Program-made: the position numbers and the translations under genes
Part shown: piece by piece, positions 17,745 through 39,107 of the stretch
How positions within the stretch are numbered: position 1 is the first letter of the stretch
How the letters are laid out: each line of letters begins with the position of its first letter
The notes under the pieces: model-generated
The model's input: only the letters and a program-made list of their open reading frames with translations
The model's database searches: none
What the model was told of the DNA's origin: nothing
Source: Sphingomonadales bacterium
GTDB taxonomy: Bacteria; Pseudomonadota; Alphaproteobacteria; Sphingomonadales; Sphingomonadaceae
NCBI GenBank assembly: GCA_027483465.1
Contig: JAIXUQ010000087.1
Location: forward strand, 26,320 to 90,319
Length of the DNA stretch: 64,000 bases
Direction of reading: 5' to 3'

Positions 17745-18346
17745 GGGTGATGGCGCGGGGCATCGCGGAACCAGGCGGTGATCACGTATTTGGTGCCGGC
17801 CCTGACCGGCAGGCCGGCGTGCAGGGTGAAGGCATTGACCCCGCCATCGGCGGTGCGGTTGTTCCAGGCGATCAGCTTGCCGGTTTCGGGCTGCACCGTC
17901 TTGTCCAGATGCACGAAGCGGGTGGCGCCGCCGGCCTGCGGCTCGTTCAGATAGACCATCAGCGTCCAGGTGCGCTGGCCGCCGTCTTCGGTGTGCGGGA
18001 AATAATCCAGGCCGGTCGGCTCGAAATAATCGGTGTGCGCCTTGAACTGCTGGCCGGGGGCATAGCGCTGGCCCTGCAAGGCCTCGGCATGGGCCAGTGG
18101 CAGGCCGGCATAATCGGCCAGGCGCGTGTAGACGGCGCGCACCAGCGGATCATCACCGGGCAGATCGGCGGTCTCGCTGGTGCGGAAGGCGGCATCGGCG
18201 CCATAGGCATCGGTGATGGTGGAGGGGCGGCGCAACCGGTCGATCAGCGCGATGATGCCGGCGCATTCGGCGGCCGAGAGGAACTTCTTGCGGATGCACA
18301 TCTCCACGCGCTTGTCGGGCACGCGCTGGGCACCGGGAAAATTCAT
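17726..18346 (-). CDS. 2-oxoglutarate/Fe(II) oxygenase (prolyl 4-hydroxylase-like)
   Basis: A 206-residue oxygenase. ATG 18346 overlaps the prepilin peptidase stop (ATGA) and follows GGGAG. The iron facial triad is AHTDYF (His and Asp) and the distal histidine in FTLHAGLPVRAGTKYVI, with Lys for 2-oxoglutarate binding close behind. The LMVYLNEPQAGGATRFVHLD stretch is typical of the prolyl-4-hydroxylase alpha-subunit fold. Substrates in bacteria are usually protein prolines but are unknown here. Its 3' end lies in a tandem duplication. Confidence 0.87.
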   Translation of the reverse strand: MNFPGAQRVPDKRVEMCIRKKFLSAAECAGIIALIDRLRRPSTITDAYGADAAFRTSETADLPGDDPLVRAVYTRLADYAGLPLAHAEALQGQRYAPGQQFKAHTDYFEPTGLDYFPHTEDGGQRTWTLMVYLNEPQAGGATRFVHLDKTVQPETGKLIAWNNRTADGGVNAFTLHAGLPVRAGTKYVITAWFRDAPRHHPPVWGG

Positions 18347-19089
18347 CGCAGCCGCTCCCCCCAATCCGGGCCGAGCATGAGCAGGATCAACGCCATGCCG
18401 GCCAGCAGCGCCCCCAGTGGCAGGGCGGTGGTGGCGGTTATCGCCCGGCCGCGCGCCCGGTCAAGCCCGGCCAGGCCGAGGCCGAGCAGCGCCGCGCCGG
18501 TCAGAATGAAGGGCAGCGGTATCCAGCCCAGCAGCGCGCCGATGCCGGCCATCAGCTTGGGATCGCCGCCGCCCATGCCCTCGCGCCCGGTGCGCCAGCG
18601 ATAGCCTGCCCGCAGCGCCGCCAGCGTGCCAAAGCCCAACAGGGCGGCCAGCGCCCGGTCGGCCAGCGGCGCAAAACCGATCACCTCGCCCAGCGCCAGC
18701 CCGGCCGGGATCAGCGGCAGGGTGAGGGCATCGGGCAGCCACTGGTGCTCGGCATCCAGCACGATCAGCGCCAGCAGCCACCAGCCGGCGATGGCGGCAG
18801 CGAGGCCGGGCAGCAGCGGGTAACGCCACAGCAGCACGGCCCCCACCGCCGCCCCGGCCAGTTCGATGGCCGGGTGCCGCCGGTCAATCGCCGCGCCGCA
18901 ATGGCGGCAGCGCCCGCGCAGCACGAGGAAGGACAGGACCGGCACCAGTTCCAGCGCGCGCAACTGCACCCCGCAGGCATCGCAGCGCGACCGGCCGGTG
19001 ATCGCCTGCCCCGCCGGCCAGCGCCCGGTGAGCACGGCGAGAAAACTGCCGATGATGAGGCCGAGCAGGGCGCCGAGGGCGGCCGTCAT
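18343..19089 (-). CDS. gspO: prepilin peptidase / N-methyltransferase (type II secretion GspO)
   Basis: A 248-residue polytopic membrane enzyme that cuts the leader of type IV pilin-like proteins and N-methylates the new first residue. The cytoplasmic zinc cysteines are CDACG and CRHCG (about residues 36-65). The two catalytic aspartates lie in LIVLDAEHQWLPDALTLP and MGGGDPKLMAGIGALLGW. The track ORF is extended by a translated repeat; ATG 19089 is the true start, and its strong Shine-Dalgarno (GGGGGAGGATC) is itself part of the palindromic repeat. It is the only such peptidase in the window and so the likely partner of the GspG-K pseudopilins 17 kb away. Confidence 0.92.
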   Translation of the reverse strand: MTAALGALLGLIIGSFLAVLTGRWPAGQAITGRSRCDACGVQLRALELVPVLSFLVLRGRCRHCGAAIDRRHPAIELAGAAVGAVLLWRYPLLPGLAAAIAGWWLLALIVLDAEHQWLPDALTLPLIPAGLALGEVIGFAPLADRALAALLGFGTLAALRAGYRWRTGREGMGGGDPKLMAGIGALLGWIPLPFILTGAALLGLGLAGLDRARGRAITATTALPLGALLAGMALILLMLGPDWGERLR

Positions 19090-19545
19090 GATCCTCCCCC
19101 TTGGGGGTGGCCCTGCCTTGATGATCCTCCCCCGCTGGGGGAGGTGCCCGCAGGGCGGAGGGGGCGGCGGGTTTGGAGATGTGCGCCTGGCCCGCCCCCT
19201 CCGCCTCCCTTCGGTCGGCACCTCCCCCCGAGGGGGAGGATCTGGGGTGGTGCGGCGATCATGATCCTCGCCCACTGGGGAAGAAGCTGAGGTGGTGCGC
19301 GCCAAGTCCCGATCCTCCCCCTCTGGGGGAGGTGCCCGCAGGGCGGAGGGGACGGCTCGCGTGGAGATGTGCGCCCGGCCCGCCCCCTCCGCCTCCCTTC
19401 GGTCGGCACCTCCCCCAAAGGGGGAGGATCTGGAGTGGTGTGGCGATCATGATCCTCGCCCACTGGGGCGGCCCTGCCTCGATGATCCTCCCCCTGCGGG
19501 GGAGGTGCCCGCAGGGCGGAGGGGGCGGCGGCTTGGGTGCATGTG
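19090..19545. repeat. cluster of palindromic intergenic repeats in composite array
   Basis: This 474-bp gap between the prepilin peptidase and alcohol dehydrogenase genes holds at least five units of one repeat family, each built on GATCCTCCCCC-n-GGGGGAGGTGCC followed by a GC-rich tail. Forward units with tail CGCAGGGCGGAGGGGGC lie at about 19122-19171, 19309-19353 and 19481-19531. Inverted units with tail CCTCCGCCTCCCTTCGGTC lie at about 19191-19242 and 19379-19432. A partial copy abuts the peptidase start. The forward/inverted pair plus its spacer (including CGATCATGATCCTCGCCCAC) is itself duplicated with a period of about 187 bp. There is no gene here. Confidence 0.88.
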
Positions 19546-36102: not shown

Positions 36103-36683
36103 CAGGGCGTGCCCCCCGGCCCCATCGGCACCACCAGCCGGATGCGGCCAATCTCCGGCCCCTCCAGCATGAGTTCCAGCGCGCGCGGCAGCGCCTGGGG
36201 ATCGGGATTGGTCCATCCGGCCTGCCAGCCGCGCCCATCATGCACCCGCATCGCCACGGCCGAAACGCCGCCCAGCAGCACGCTGGCCTCTCCTTCGGCC
36301 ACACCATCCAGCATCGGCGCGGGGCGGCGCACCAGTGCGCCACCCTCAACTGACCAACGCACCCGTTGCAGGGAGGCGCGCGGCATGCCGGCCGGATTGG
36401 CCCAGCCGCGCCGCACCAGCGTGAACAGCGCGCCGTCACCGCCGCTGAAGGCGGCATGGGTGCGGCCTTCGCCATCGCGCCACGGCCGTGGTGCAGCCTG
36501 GGCGGCATCGGCCATCAGCAGCGCCTGGGTGCGGGCCAGCGCGCCGGCGCCATCGGCCAGCCGGGTCGCGGCGTCGCTGGCAGCCACGCTGCCGGCCAGC
36601 AGCGCGGTGCCGGCGCTGGCCATGAGGCCGAAAATGGCCAGGCCCACCAGCAGCTCGATCAGGGTGAAGCCGTTGCGGATCAT
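36102..36683 (-). CDS. gspJ: minor pseudopilin GspJ
   Basis: A 193-residue pseudopilin. ATG 36683 overlaps the gspI stop (ATGA). The short leader MIRNG is cut before FTLIELLVGLAIFGLMAS, with Glu at +5. The C-terminal part (VRWSVEGGALVRRPAPMLDG) has the beta-rich GspJ head that packs with GspI and GspK. Confidence 0.9.
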   Translation of the reverse strand: MIRNGFTLIELLVGLAIFGLMASAGTALLAGSVAASDAATRLADGAGALARTQALLMADAAQAAPRPWRDGEGRTHAAFSGGDGALFTLVRRGWANPAGMPRASLQRVRWSVEGGALVRRPAPMLDGVAEGEASVLLGGVSAVAMRVHDGRGWQAGWTNPDPQALPRALELMLEGPEIGRIRLVVPMGPGGTP

Positions 36684-37030
36684 CGCCGGCTCCACAACAG
36701 CCGGTCGCTGGCGATGGTCTGGCCGGCGGCGCCGCGCACATCGACGGCGATCAGGATGGTGCCGGGATCGGGGCCGGGGCTGGTGCGGCGCACCCAGGCC
36801 CATTCGCGCCGGCCGGCGCGTTCCTGCCCGGCGGCCGGCCCGGGGGCGGTGGGGGAAAGCCAGGCCTCCAGCGCCTGGTTGCGGGCGACGATGGCGGCCT
36901 CCCCCCGTTCGGCCAGTGTGGTGGCGCTGGCCAGGCTCACCCCTTGCAGGCGGATCAGCGCGACCGCGGCCAGGCCGAAGATGGCCAGCGCCACCATCAC
37001 CTCAACCAGCGAGAAGCCCTCAGCGCGCAT
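36680..37030 (-). CDS. gspI: minor pseudopilin GspI
   Basis: A 116-residue pseudopilin with leader MRAEG cut before FSLVEVMVALAIFGLAAVAL. The C-terminal head ends LLWSRR. It overlaps gspH by 11 bp and gspJ by 4 bp. GspI starts assembly of the tip complex. Confidence 0.9.
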   Translation of the reverse strand: MRAEGFSLVEVMVALAIFGLAAVALIRLQGVSLASATTLAERGEAAIVARNQALEAWLSPTAPGPAAGQERAGRREWAWVRRTSPGPDPGTILIAVDVRGAAGQTIASDRLLWSRR

Positions 37031-37448
37031 GGACCGCTCCGGCGGCGCTGATCGTCACGCTGGCGCTGGCGCTGTCTTGCTGCACCGTCAGCCGCGCCGG
37101 GCTGGCCAGGCCGGTGGGATCGAAGATGATGGCGCCTTCCGGCTCGCTGATCAGGCGCTGGCCGGCTGGCAGGCGCACCGCCGGCTGGCCGGCCGCCTGC
37201 CAGCCCTGCGCAGCGGGCATCACCTGCACCGGCCGGCCCGACAGGATGGCGGCATCGCGCGCGGCATTCATGTGGGCGGCCAGCCGCTGGGCGCTGCGGC
37301 GCACATCATCGCCGTCGCCCGGCAGGCTGAGCACCACGGCCGCCGCGGCAATGCCGATGATGGCGATCACCACCACCAGCTCCACCAGCGTGAAGCCGGC
37401 CGCACGCCGCCTTGGCGGGGCGTCACAGGTTCCAGTTGCCGATGTCAT
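37020..37448 (-). CDS. gspH: minor pseudopilin GspH
   Basis: A 142-residue pseudopilin. ATG 37448 follows GGAG and overlaps the end of gspG by 26 bp; no better in-frame start lies between it and the cleavage site. The leader of 18 residues ends RRRAAG before FTLVELVVVIAIIGIAAAA. The head domain includes AAHMNAARDAAILSGRPVQV, typical of GspH. Confidence 0.86.
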   Translation of the reverse strand: MTSATGTCDAPPRRRAAGFTLVELVVVIAIIGIAAAAVVLSLPGDGDDVRRSAQRLAAHMNAARDAAILSGRPVQVMPAAQGWQAAGQPAVRLPAGQRLISEPEGAIIFDPTGLASPARLTVQQDSASASVTISAAGAVHAR

Positions 37449-37899
37449 CACCGTCGGCTCCGGGCCCGGTCTTGCCATCCGGCCCCATCGACCAGACATC
37501 GAACGGCCCGCTGCGGCCGGGGGCGGCATAGCGATAGGGATGACCCCAGGGATCATTGGGCAGCCGGCTGAGATAGCCGCCGGGGCGATAGCGTTCGGGC
37601 TGGGCCAGCCCGCCGGGCGGCGCCTTCAGCGCGTCCAGCCCTTCGGCGGTGCTGGGAAACGCCATCTGATCGGCGCGATAGGCGGTGAGCGCGGTTTCCA
37701 GCGCGGCGATATCGGCGCGGGCGCGGGTGGAGGCGGCCTTGTCCACATCGGGCAGCACGTTGATCACCACCACGGTGGTGAGGATGCCGATGATCACGAT
37801 CACCACCATCAGTTCGATGAGGGTGAAGCCGTTGATCCTCCCCCCCTGGGGGAGGTGCCCGCAGGGCGGAGGGGGCTGGGGGCGGCGGGCGGTCTTCAT
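37423..37899 (-). CDS. gspG: major pseudopilin GspG with repeat-derived leader
   Basis: A 158-residue major pseudopilin. ATG 37899 overlaps the gspF stop (ATGA), so this start is secure. Cleavage is predicted at G24/F25 in INGFTLIELMVVIVIIGILT. The leader is 24 residues, much longer than the usual 5-10, because residues 9-22 (PPPPCGHLPQGGRI) are encoded by a copy of the palindromic repeat family at 19.1-19.5 kb. The C-terminal part (LPNDPWGHPYRYAAPGRSGPFDVWSMGPDG) carries the conserved calcium-binding region of GspG. No alternative start exists between the repeat and the cleavage site. Confidence 0.93.
   Translation of the reverse strand: MKTARRPQPPPPCGHLPQGGRINGFTLIELMVVIVIIGILTTVVVINVLPDVDKAASTRARADIAALETALTAYRADQMAFPSTAEGLDALKAPPGGLAQPERYRPGGYLSRLPNDPWGHPYRYAAPGRSGPFDVWSMGPDGKTGPGADGDDIGNWNL
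37834..37876. repeat. palindromic repeat unit inside the gspG leader
   Basis: A forward unit of the family found at 19090-19545: GATCCTCC, then GGGGGAGGTGCCCGCAGGGC and GGAGGGGGC. It is in frame, has no stop codon, and lies between the gspG start codon and its prepilin cleavage site. Confidence 0.9.
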
Positions 37900-39107
37900 G
37901 CGCTGGCCAGGCTTTCCAGTTGCAGGATGGGGAGCAGGATGGCGAGGACGATCACCGCCACCGCGCCGCCCATCACCAGGATGATCGCTGGTTCCAGCAG
38001 GGCAAGCGCAGCGCGGGTGGCGGCTTCATGCTCACGCTCAAGGGCATCGGCACCGCGATCAAGCATGATATCCAGCCGCCCGGCGCTTTCGCCGCCGGCC
38101 GCCATCGCGACCAGCAGCGGCGGCAGGATGGCCGCCCGCTTCATCGCGGCGGTCAGGCTGGCGCCCTCGCTGATATCGTCGGCCATCTGCGCCACGCGGG
38201 CGCGGATCTCATGATTGCCGATGGTGGGCAGGGTGAGCTTGAGCCCGTCAACGATCGGCAGACGGCTGGCCACCATCATCGCCAGCGTGCGCGCCAGCCG
38301 GGCGGCCTGCCAGTTGCGGATCAGCCGCCCGGCCAGCGGCAACGTGAGCAGGCGGGCATCGATGCGGCGGCGGCTGGCGGGATCGGCCAGCGCGCGCGCC
38401 AGCACCATGGCCGCGCCGCCCAGCAGCAGTGCCAGCAGCCACCACCAGCCGGCGATCAGATCGGACAGGCCAACCACGATGCGGGTGAGCAGCGGCAGGG
38501 TCTGGCCGATATCGGCGAACTGTTCGGCGATGCGCGGCACCACGAAGGCCATCAGCGCCGTCACCGCCAGTGTGGCCACCACTGCCAGCGCTGCCGGATA
38601 GGCCAGCGCCGCCAGCAGCTTGCCGCGCAATTCGGCCTGCGCTTCCAGCAGGGCGGCCAGCCGTTCCAGCAGGGTGGGCAGGGTGCCGGCGCCTTCGCCC
38701 GCGGCCACCATGGCGCGGTAGAGCGGCGGGAAGCTGGCCGCTTCCTGGGCCATGGCTTCGGAGAGGCGGCGGCCTTCCACCACGGCACCGTGCACGCTGG
38801 CGATCACGGCGGCGGCGCCGTCGCGGCGGCCTTCGCTTTCGGCCTGGATGCGGATGGTGCGCAGTGCCTCTTCCAACGGCGCCACAGCGGCCAGGGTGGC
38901 CAGTTGCCGGGTGAACAGCGCCAGCGCGGCCGGCTTCAGGCGGCGGCTGCGCGCCGGCTGGCTGGCGGCGGCCAGCGGCTCAAGGCGCACCGGAAACAGC
39001 TTGCGGCCCAGCAGATCGGCGCGCGCCGCCTCGCGGTTGGCCGCCGCGATGCGGCCCCGGCGCGGCTGGCCGGCGCTGTCGAGCGCTTCCCACGCCCATT
39101 CAGCCAT
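37896..39107 (-). CDS. gspF: type II secretion system inner-membrane platform protein F
   Basis: A 403-residue polytopic protein at the centre of the T2SS platform. The N-terminal MAEWAWEALDSAGQPRRGRI is typical, followed by two homologous cytoplasmic domains (FTRQLATLAAVAPLEEALRT and [19 protein letters not shown]) and three membrane helices (near 165-190, 215-240 and 375-400). It overlaps gspE by 8 bp and gspG by 4 bp. Confidence 0.92.
   Translation of the reverse strand: MAEWAWEALDSAGQPRRGRIAAANREAARADLLGRKLFPVRLEPLAAASQPARSRRLKPAALALFTRQLATLAAVAPLEEALRTIRIQAESEGRRDGAAAVIASVHGAVVEGRRLSEAMAQEAASFPPLYRAMVAAGEGAGTLPTLLERLAALLEAQAELRGKLLAALAYPAALAVVATLAVTALMAFVVPRIAEQFADIGQTLPLLTRIVVGLSDLIAGWWWLLALLLGGAAMVLARALADPASRRRIDARLLTLPLAGRLIRNWQAARLARTLAMMVASRLPIVDGLKLTLPTIGNHEIRARVAQMADDISEGASLTAAMKRAAILPPLLVAMAAGGESAGRLDIMLDRGADALEREHEAATRAALALLEPAIILVMGGAVAVIVLAILLPILQLESLASA

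Follow-up and report, generated by a model that had tools for sequence, protein, structure and literature searches.

A unit of a dispersed palindromic DNA repeat is read in frame as part of the leader peptide of GspG, the major pseudopilin, in the Sandarakinorhabdus genome described here (G000). The start codon is forced, the frame is kept and relatives have short leaders. The repeat follows a placement rule behind stop codons, and repeat-filled leaders recur in other species and other genes. The proposed explanation, to which a probability of about 0.82 is assigned, is that a non-autonomous repeat resembling repetitive extragenic palindromes (REPs) inserted behind the gspF stop codon, became the gspG leader and was kept as nearly neutral.

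The gspG Start and Leader

The window, a stretch of 64,000 nucleotides (64 kb), carries gspG on the minus strand (37,423–37,899; Pfam T2SSG 4e-32, N_methyl 1e-7). The gene upstream of it is gspF (37,896–39,107, minus strand; Pfam T2SSF), and the repeat lies behind the 3′ end of gspF. GspG has a Gly-Phe (G/F) cleavage site, E5, a hydrophobic N-terminus, the T2SSG domain and a gsp operon context, all of which identify it as a pseudopilin; the rest of the operon matches the Pfam families T2SSE, Secretin, GspH, T2SSI, T2SSJ, T2SSK and T2SSL. The leader of a pseudopilin needs little: a start, some positive charge and a G/F...E site.

The gspF stop and the gspG start overlap as ATGA (37,896–37,899, minus strand), the gspG ATG occupying 37,899–37,897. 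The leader, MKTARRPQPPPPCGHLPQGGRING, spans 24 codons (37,828–37,899, minus strand) with predicted cleavage after G24, and the reading across the site is MKTARRPQPPPPCGHLPQGGRING/FTLIELMVVIVIIG, i.e., NG/FTLIELMVVIVIIG. Between the ATG and G24/F25 the window sequence has no ATG, GTG or TTG. As the overlap leaves no untranslated space and there is no alternative start, the repeat is forced into the predicted protein. An earlier note on this DNA had proposed a start fixed by the gspF stop, a leader of 24 residues with its Gly-Phe site at G24/F25, and a repeat origin for residues 9–22. Each of these points held, the unit covering residues 8/9–22 in frame; initiation at another codon, named there as contrary evidence, has no other start codon in gspG to use. 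The forced reading is not universal: in gspI of genomes G015 and G010, another start codon follows the repeat. The window’s own gspI (36,680–37,030, minus strand; Pfam T2SSI) has the short leader MRAEG/F and represents an empty site.

The Repeat Family

The unit is a 43-nt palindromic repeat, GATCCTCCCCCCCTGGGGGAGGTGCCCGCAGGGCGGAGGGGGC (37,834–37,876, plus strand), the minus strand of which encodes ...PPPPCGHLPQGGRI of the GspG leader. It has a palindromic arm of 8 bp and starts 19 nt past the gspF stop. The window contains four copies of a 27-nt core (37,848–37,874) without a mismatch, compared with 0 expected in shuffles, and the three copies outside gspG all lie in an intergenic cluster at 19.1–19.5 kb. 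Genome-wide there are approximately 50 copies (49 at E ≤ 1e-5; 52 placed), and a reversed-pattern control of the search gave 0 matches. The gspG copy is the sole copy found within a reading frame in this genome, the others being intergenic.

The cluster (19,123–19,526, unstranded), to which the earlier note had pointed, holds five units of the gspG-leader family plus a half unit. The units alternate in orientation, three being plus (19,123–19,165, 19,311–19,351 and 19,484–19,526) and two minus (19,194–19,242 and 19,382–19,430). The statement that these copies give the same peptide in the same frame is correct for the plus-oriented ones; it does not extend to the variable spacer, which differs (e.g., PPPPCGHLPQRGRI). 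A half repeat is found immediately before the start of the gene for the prepilin peptidase (18,343–19,089, minus strand; Pfam A24_N_bact and Peptidase_A24), the enzyme presumed to cleave off the GspG leader.

Repeat ends that abut start codons in the form GGGGGAGGATC-(N)-ATG are present in the window (19,081–19,107) and at loci L159 (1909–1960), L176 (1879–1926), L195 and L167. The genes concerned are the prepilin peptidase (window and G019) and a ThiF-like gene in three relatives. Judging from these sequences, the repeat end may supply the ribosome-binding site at such starts.

The family is REP-like in that many short palindromic copies are dispersed, chiefly between genes, and located directly behind the 3′ ends of genes. 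It also shares a feature of Rickettsia palindromic elements (RPEs), as the repeat is read in frame inside a conserved gene in a gspG leader with no alternative start. The terminal tetranucleotide GTAG/CGTC is absent, the window copies ending in GATC/GGGGC, which places the family outside the GTAG/CGTC REP superfamily. A RAYT (Y1_Tnp, PF01797) was found in G001 and not in G000, G015 or G019, drafts that may miss one. A RAYT as the mover of the repeat is unsupported, none having been detected in the genome’s own sequence (G000).

Placement Relative to Genes

A home-made gene caller based on codon usage and trained on the window was applied to 216 copies in the four genomes that carry the family. 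The resulting copy counts are approximate, as the draft genomes are gapped in repeats, the caller is home-made and BLAST thresholds were used. Of the junctions occupied by repeat clusters, 56 are convergent, 55 co-directional and 4 divergent, with a median distance of 15 nt to the flanking stop (quartiles 7 and 39) and of 68 nt to the flanking start. The gspG copy, 19 nt after the gspF stop, is at the family’s normal address.

Within called gene bodies, 0/216 copies were found apart from one weak partial match (L200). In-frame copies are confined to gsp leaders, fliI N-termini and this weak match, the rest being intergenic or in ambiguous 5′ flanks. Because the caller favours starts downstream of repeats, upstream in-frame starts were also sought; 19 copies are readable from such starts, most of them ambiguous, with an ordinary start following the repeat. 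Besides the gsp leaders there is one clear in-frame case, G001 fliI (L222, 1799–2105, contig C81), a putative assignment made from its sequence and not by a family search. This gene has an N-terminal extension of ~90 residues from 3–4 repeat copies and an ATGA overlap with the preceding gene; there is no start codon between codons 26 and 102 and none close to the conserved part. In G015, fliI has a similar repeat extension but other starts are present. As G001 fliI carries repeats without a cleaved leader, cleavage is not the sole condition, and leaders are favoured as a repeat site yet not exclusive.

There are 23 tight same-strand junctions in the 64-kb window, or ~1290 per genome by extrapolation. 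With random placement of four events on tight junctions, the chance of at least three falling at the four pseudopilin junctions is ~1e-7, and ~3e-5 if the event prompting the search is left out; both figures are rough and the excess was noticed post hoc, while the cases from other genes, other genera and other repeat families do not depend on the initial observation.

Distribution among Sandarakinorhabdus Relatives

The nearest named relative of G000 is Sandarakinorhabdus cyanobacteriorum TH057 (L053), which matches G001 and has identical leaders. The repeat family occurs in four of the 24 genus genomes searched (49 matches in G000, 56 in G001, 34 in G015 and 42 in G019), with none at E ≤ 1e-5 in the remaining ones. 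These carriers coincide exactly with the genomes in which a gsp leader region contains a repeat of this family, that of gspG in two genomes and that of gspI in three. The gspG repeat is found in G000 (24-residue leader) and in G001 (leader MKSPHRQPPPPCGHLPQRGRMNG), where an ATG at the repeat end would give the leader MNG. The other two carriers have gspG without the repeat, with leaders MNTTRRRIPNG (G015) and MNTTRRIIRNG (G019). Where the family is absent, the GspG leaders are mostly of 9–11 residues and start at the homologous ATG, e.g., MKTKKRPIQNG (G018) and MKRNRNEEG (G004); the ATGA start is also conserved in short-leader relatives. The alignment of relatives’ leaders that the earlier note had proposed as a check thus recovers short, repeat-free leaders and supports its view that a frame-keeping repeat lengthened this one. 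The outcome that would have spoken against it, relatives sharing the leader with no repeats elsewhere, is not seen; in the relatives that carry the family, dozens of further copies are spread over the genome.

In gspI, the 55-residue leader of G019 contains two inverted copies, with no in-frame start nearer than codon −55. The leader region of G015 has one copy, followed by an alternative ATG. In that of G001, at least three copies are present, and the assembly is interrupted within them by a run of N. The gspJ leader region of G019 (L033, 1853–1994) contains another, unrelated palindrome, HAELVEARTTDGPCLDKLGMS.

The tree of the GspG–GspN proteins is (G000,(G019,(G001,G015))), with all forks starred. 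The offset of the gspI insert is identical in G015, G019 and G001, 23 nt after the A of the ATG, and one gain would fit this pattern. The gspG insert is present in G000 and G001 and not in G015 or G019, so that on the species tree two separate gains, in G000 and in G001, appear the simplest account. Separate gains are also supported by the agreement of the two gspG repeats at 41/43 sites, compared with 53/77 for gspG fourfold sites, and by 5′ junctions that differ by 3 nt, the frame being kept in both. It is possible that the shared copies reflect one gain followed by two losses, conversion from other copies, or interspecies exchange.

Repeat-Filled Leaders in Other Sphingomonads

Many pseudopilin leader regions with palindromic repeats occur among the gsp loci of other sphingomonad genomes. 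The gspG leader of Sphingomonas oligophenolica contains a repeat with ~40 dispersed copies, its start overlapping the gspF stop as TTGA. That of Blastomonas aquatica has 46 codons, an ATGA overlap and likewise a repeat with ~40 dispersed copies. In these two families, 42/42 other sampled copies are intergenic. The gspH leader of S. parapaucimobilis is 54 codons long, with a GTGA overlap and a dispersed repeat family; its length and frame are kept in four Sphingomonas species, and S. sanguinis (L107) has a gspH leader of 31 codons without the repeat. The gspI leader region of the S. parapaucimobilis group holds a 132-nt repeat with >60 matches in each of four genomes, and G010 gspI has a dispersed repeat in its leader region, but a GTG follows. 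At the verified junctions, namely gspG of S. oligophenolica and B. aquatica and gspH/gspI of the S. parapaucimobilis group, the starts overlap upstream stops.

As unrelated repeats fill gspG and gspH leaders in Sphingomonas and Blastomonas, the phenomenon recurs. The earlier opinion that repeat-derived leader segments are unusual has to be given up for sphingomonad pseudopilins, in which several loci and several repeat families are involved. The likely cause lies less in the leader than in the repeat’s usual post-stop position combined with overlapping genes.

An inverted-repeat score singled out 9/202 sphingomonad leaders, compared with 0/202 and 1/202 in two control stretches and 5/201 in a third control 300–390 nt upstream, a comparison with little power overall. 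Orthologous matches overwhelmed a BLAST search of all loci with the leaders.

Two further kinds of leader were observed. In several Sphingomonas/Sphingobium (L113, 4367–5465; L110, L112, L128), pseudopilin leaders contain tandem copies of an 11-residue unit, (F)xxxRRSAEHG. Every copy has a G/F site of its own, and more than one of the G, H, I and J leaders is built in this way. The suspicion that the RRSAEHGF units are another dispersed repeat was rejected, as their matches lie in gsp operon leaders. In Sphingomonas aerolata, the gspJ leader frame (L129, 5267–5573) is of up to 102 codons and shows a tandemly doubled long repeat, VIPANAGTQ...GRWVPGQARDDG.

Proposed Explanation and Alternatives

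In the proposed sequence of events, a non-autonomous REP-like palindrome, the usual site of which is a few nucleotides behind stop codons, would have inserted 19 nt past the gspF stop. As gspG starts inside that stop (ATGA), the post-stop address is the gspG leader. The insert, together with small flanking changes, would have added 39 nt to a short leader like that of the relatives and extended it from 11 to 24 residues; with 39 nt added, the frame is kept. The prepilin peptidase would then remove the leader, so that only the frame, the start and the G/F site need survive. With the leader removed and its sequence needs loose, a frame-keeping insertion would be nearly neutral and could persist. 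Both removal and neutrality are inferred here, and survival of the insertion probably depends on them.

It could be argued that the repeat is kept at the gspF–gspG junction as RNA, its hairpin stabilizing the mRNA or setting translation, and with it the amount of GspG relative to GspF. An 8-bp GC stem, CCUCCCCC/GGGGGAGG, is predicted in the gspG leader mRNA, the repeats stand behind stop codons like REPs that are thought to act on mRNA (PMC3733652), and the tree is most simply read as two occupations of the gspG site. However, folding does not improve on that of shuffled sequence (z of 0.01 with the leader mRNA and of −0.7 with the repeat), gspG of G015 and G019 manages without the repeat, and the family is scattered behind many unrelated genes. 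As the folding signal holds nothing beyond composition, a regulatory role is only a minor rival and is considered unlikely. The broader idea that sphingomonad pseudopilin leaders are a preferred, recurrent repeat site, at which the overlap hairpin now serves to control the proportions in which the gsp pseudopilins are made, is rather improbable as well.

If translation began elsewhere, through a non-standard codon or re-initiation, the repeat would be truly intergenic and outside the protein. The REP survey warns that many N-terminal REPs are possibly untranslated (PMC3733652), and the ATG at the repeat end in G001 would permit this; but the window has no ATG, GTG or TTG before F25, the frame is kept in two species despite a 3-nt indel, the ATGA start is shared with short-leader relatives, and the 54-codon gspH leaders hold length and frame across four Sphingomonas species. 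An intergenic repeat is accordingly very unlikely. Practically no weight is given to the possibility that the long leader is old and, in GC-rich DNA, came to resemble the repeat by convergence or by chance. Such genomes do commonly contain proline-rich, GC-rich sequence, but the 27-nt core is exact with 0 expected, the family occurs only in the four species whose gsp leader regions contain it, and outgroup leaders are short.

Relation to Known Systems and Significance

REPs are small palindromes placed behind 3′ ends, including CGTC-1 of Sphingomonas wittichii, and some lie inside ORFs, as reported in PMC3733652. Like the window family, GTAG/CGTC REPs have tens of copies, often oppositely paired, at convergent or unidirectional 3′ ends; they end in GTAG/CGTC, whereas the window unit ends in GATC.../...GGGGC and no RAYT was found in its genome. 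The intragenic examples in the survey’s main text come from genes for DNA repair, from replication genes and from RNA-related ones, and not from pseudopilin leaders (PMC3733652). RPEs in protein genes (Ogata et al. 2000, as outlined in PMC2229807) resemble the gspG repeat in being palindromes translated in frame in a conserved protein without destroying it. According to that outline they are longer (105–146 bp) and present in many genes, whereas the window family is nearly all intergenic, with coding copies at overlapping junctions and mostly in leaders.

In Yersinia, the signal peptide predicted for YPO1552 is formed in part by the repeat RU-2 (PMC2759123), which, like the gspG repeat, contributes to an N-terminal targeting sequence. 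The Yersinia case concerns just one putative exported protein, whose signal peptide is a prediction, while the gspG case involves a prepilin-type leader in a conserved secretion part and recurs in several species and with several repeat families. Type IVb prepilins have leaders of ~15–30 aa, and the 24-residue GspG leader is within the length that their prepilin peptidases handle (PMC3927602). GspG differs in being a pseudopilin with short leaders in relatives, the length coming from a DNA repeat.

Proteins decorated by REPs or RPEs are already known; that pseudopilin leaders recurrently take up such repeats appears to be new in the open-access literature. In the gspG leader and its counterparts, translation of REP-type DNA as an N-terminus would be forced, whereas the main REP survey left this class out of account as possibly spurious. 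Gene-start prediction for pseudopilins can go astray where leaders are long and filled with repeats. The presence/absence pairs in sister species are natural tests of the leader length and strangeness that are tolerated in a prepilin. A fixed post-stop address combined with overlapping genes would offer a simple route from a mobile repeat to a protein.
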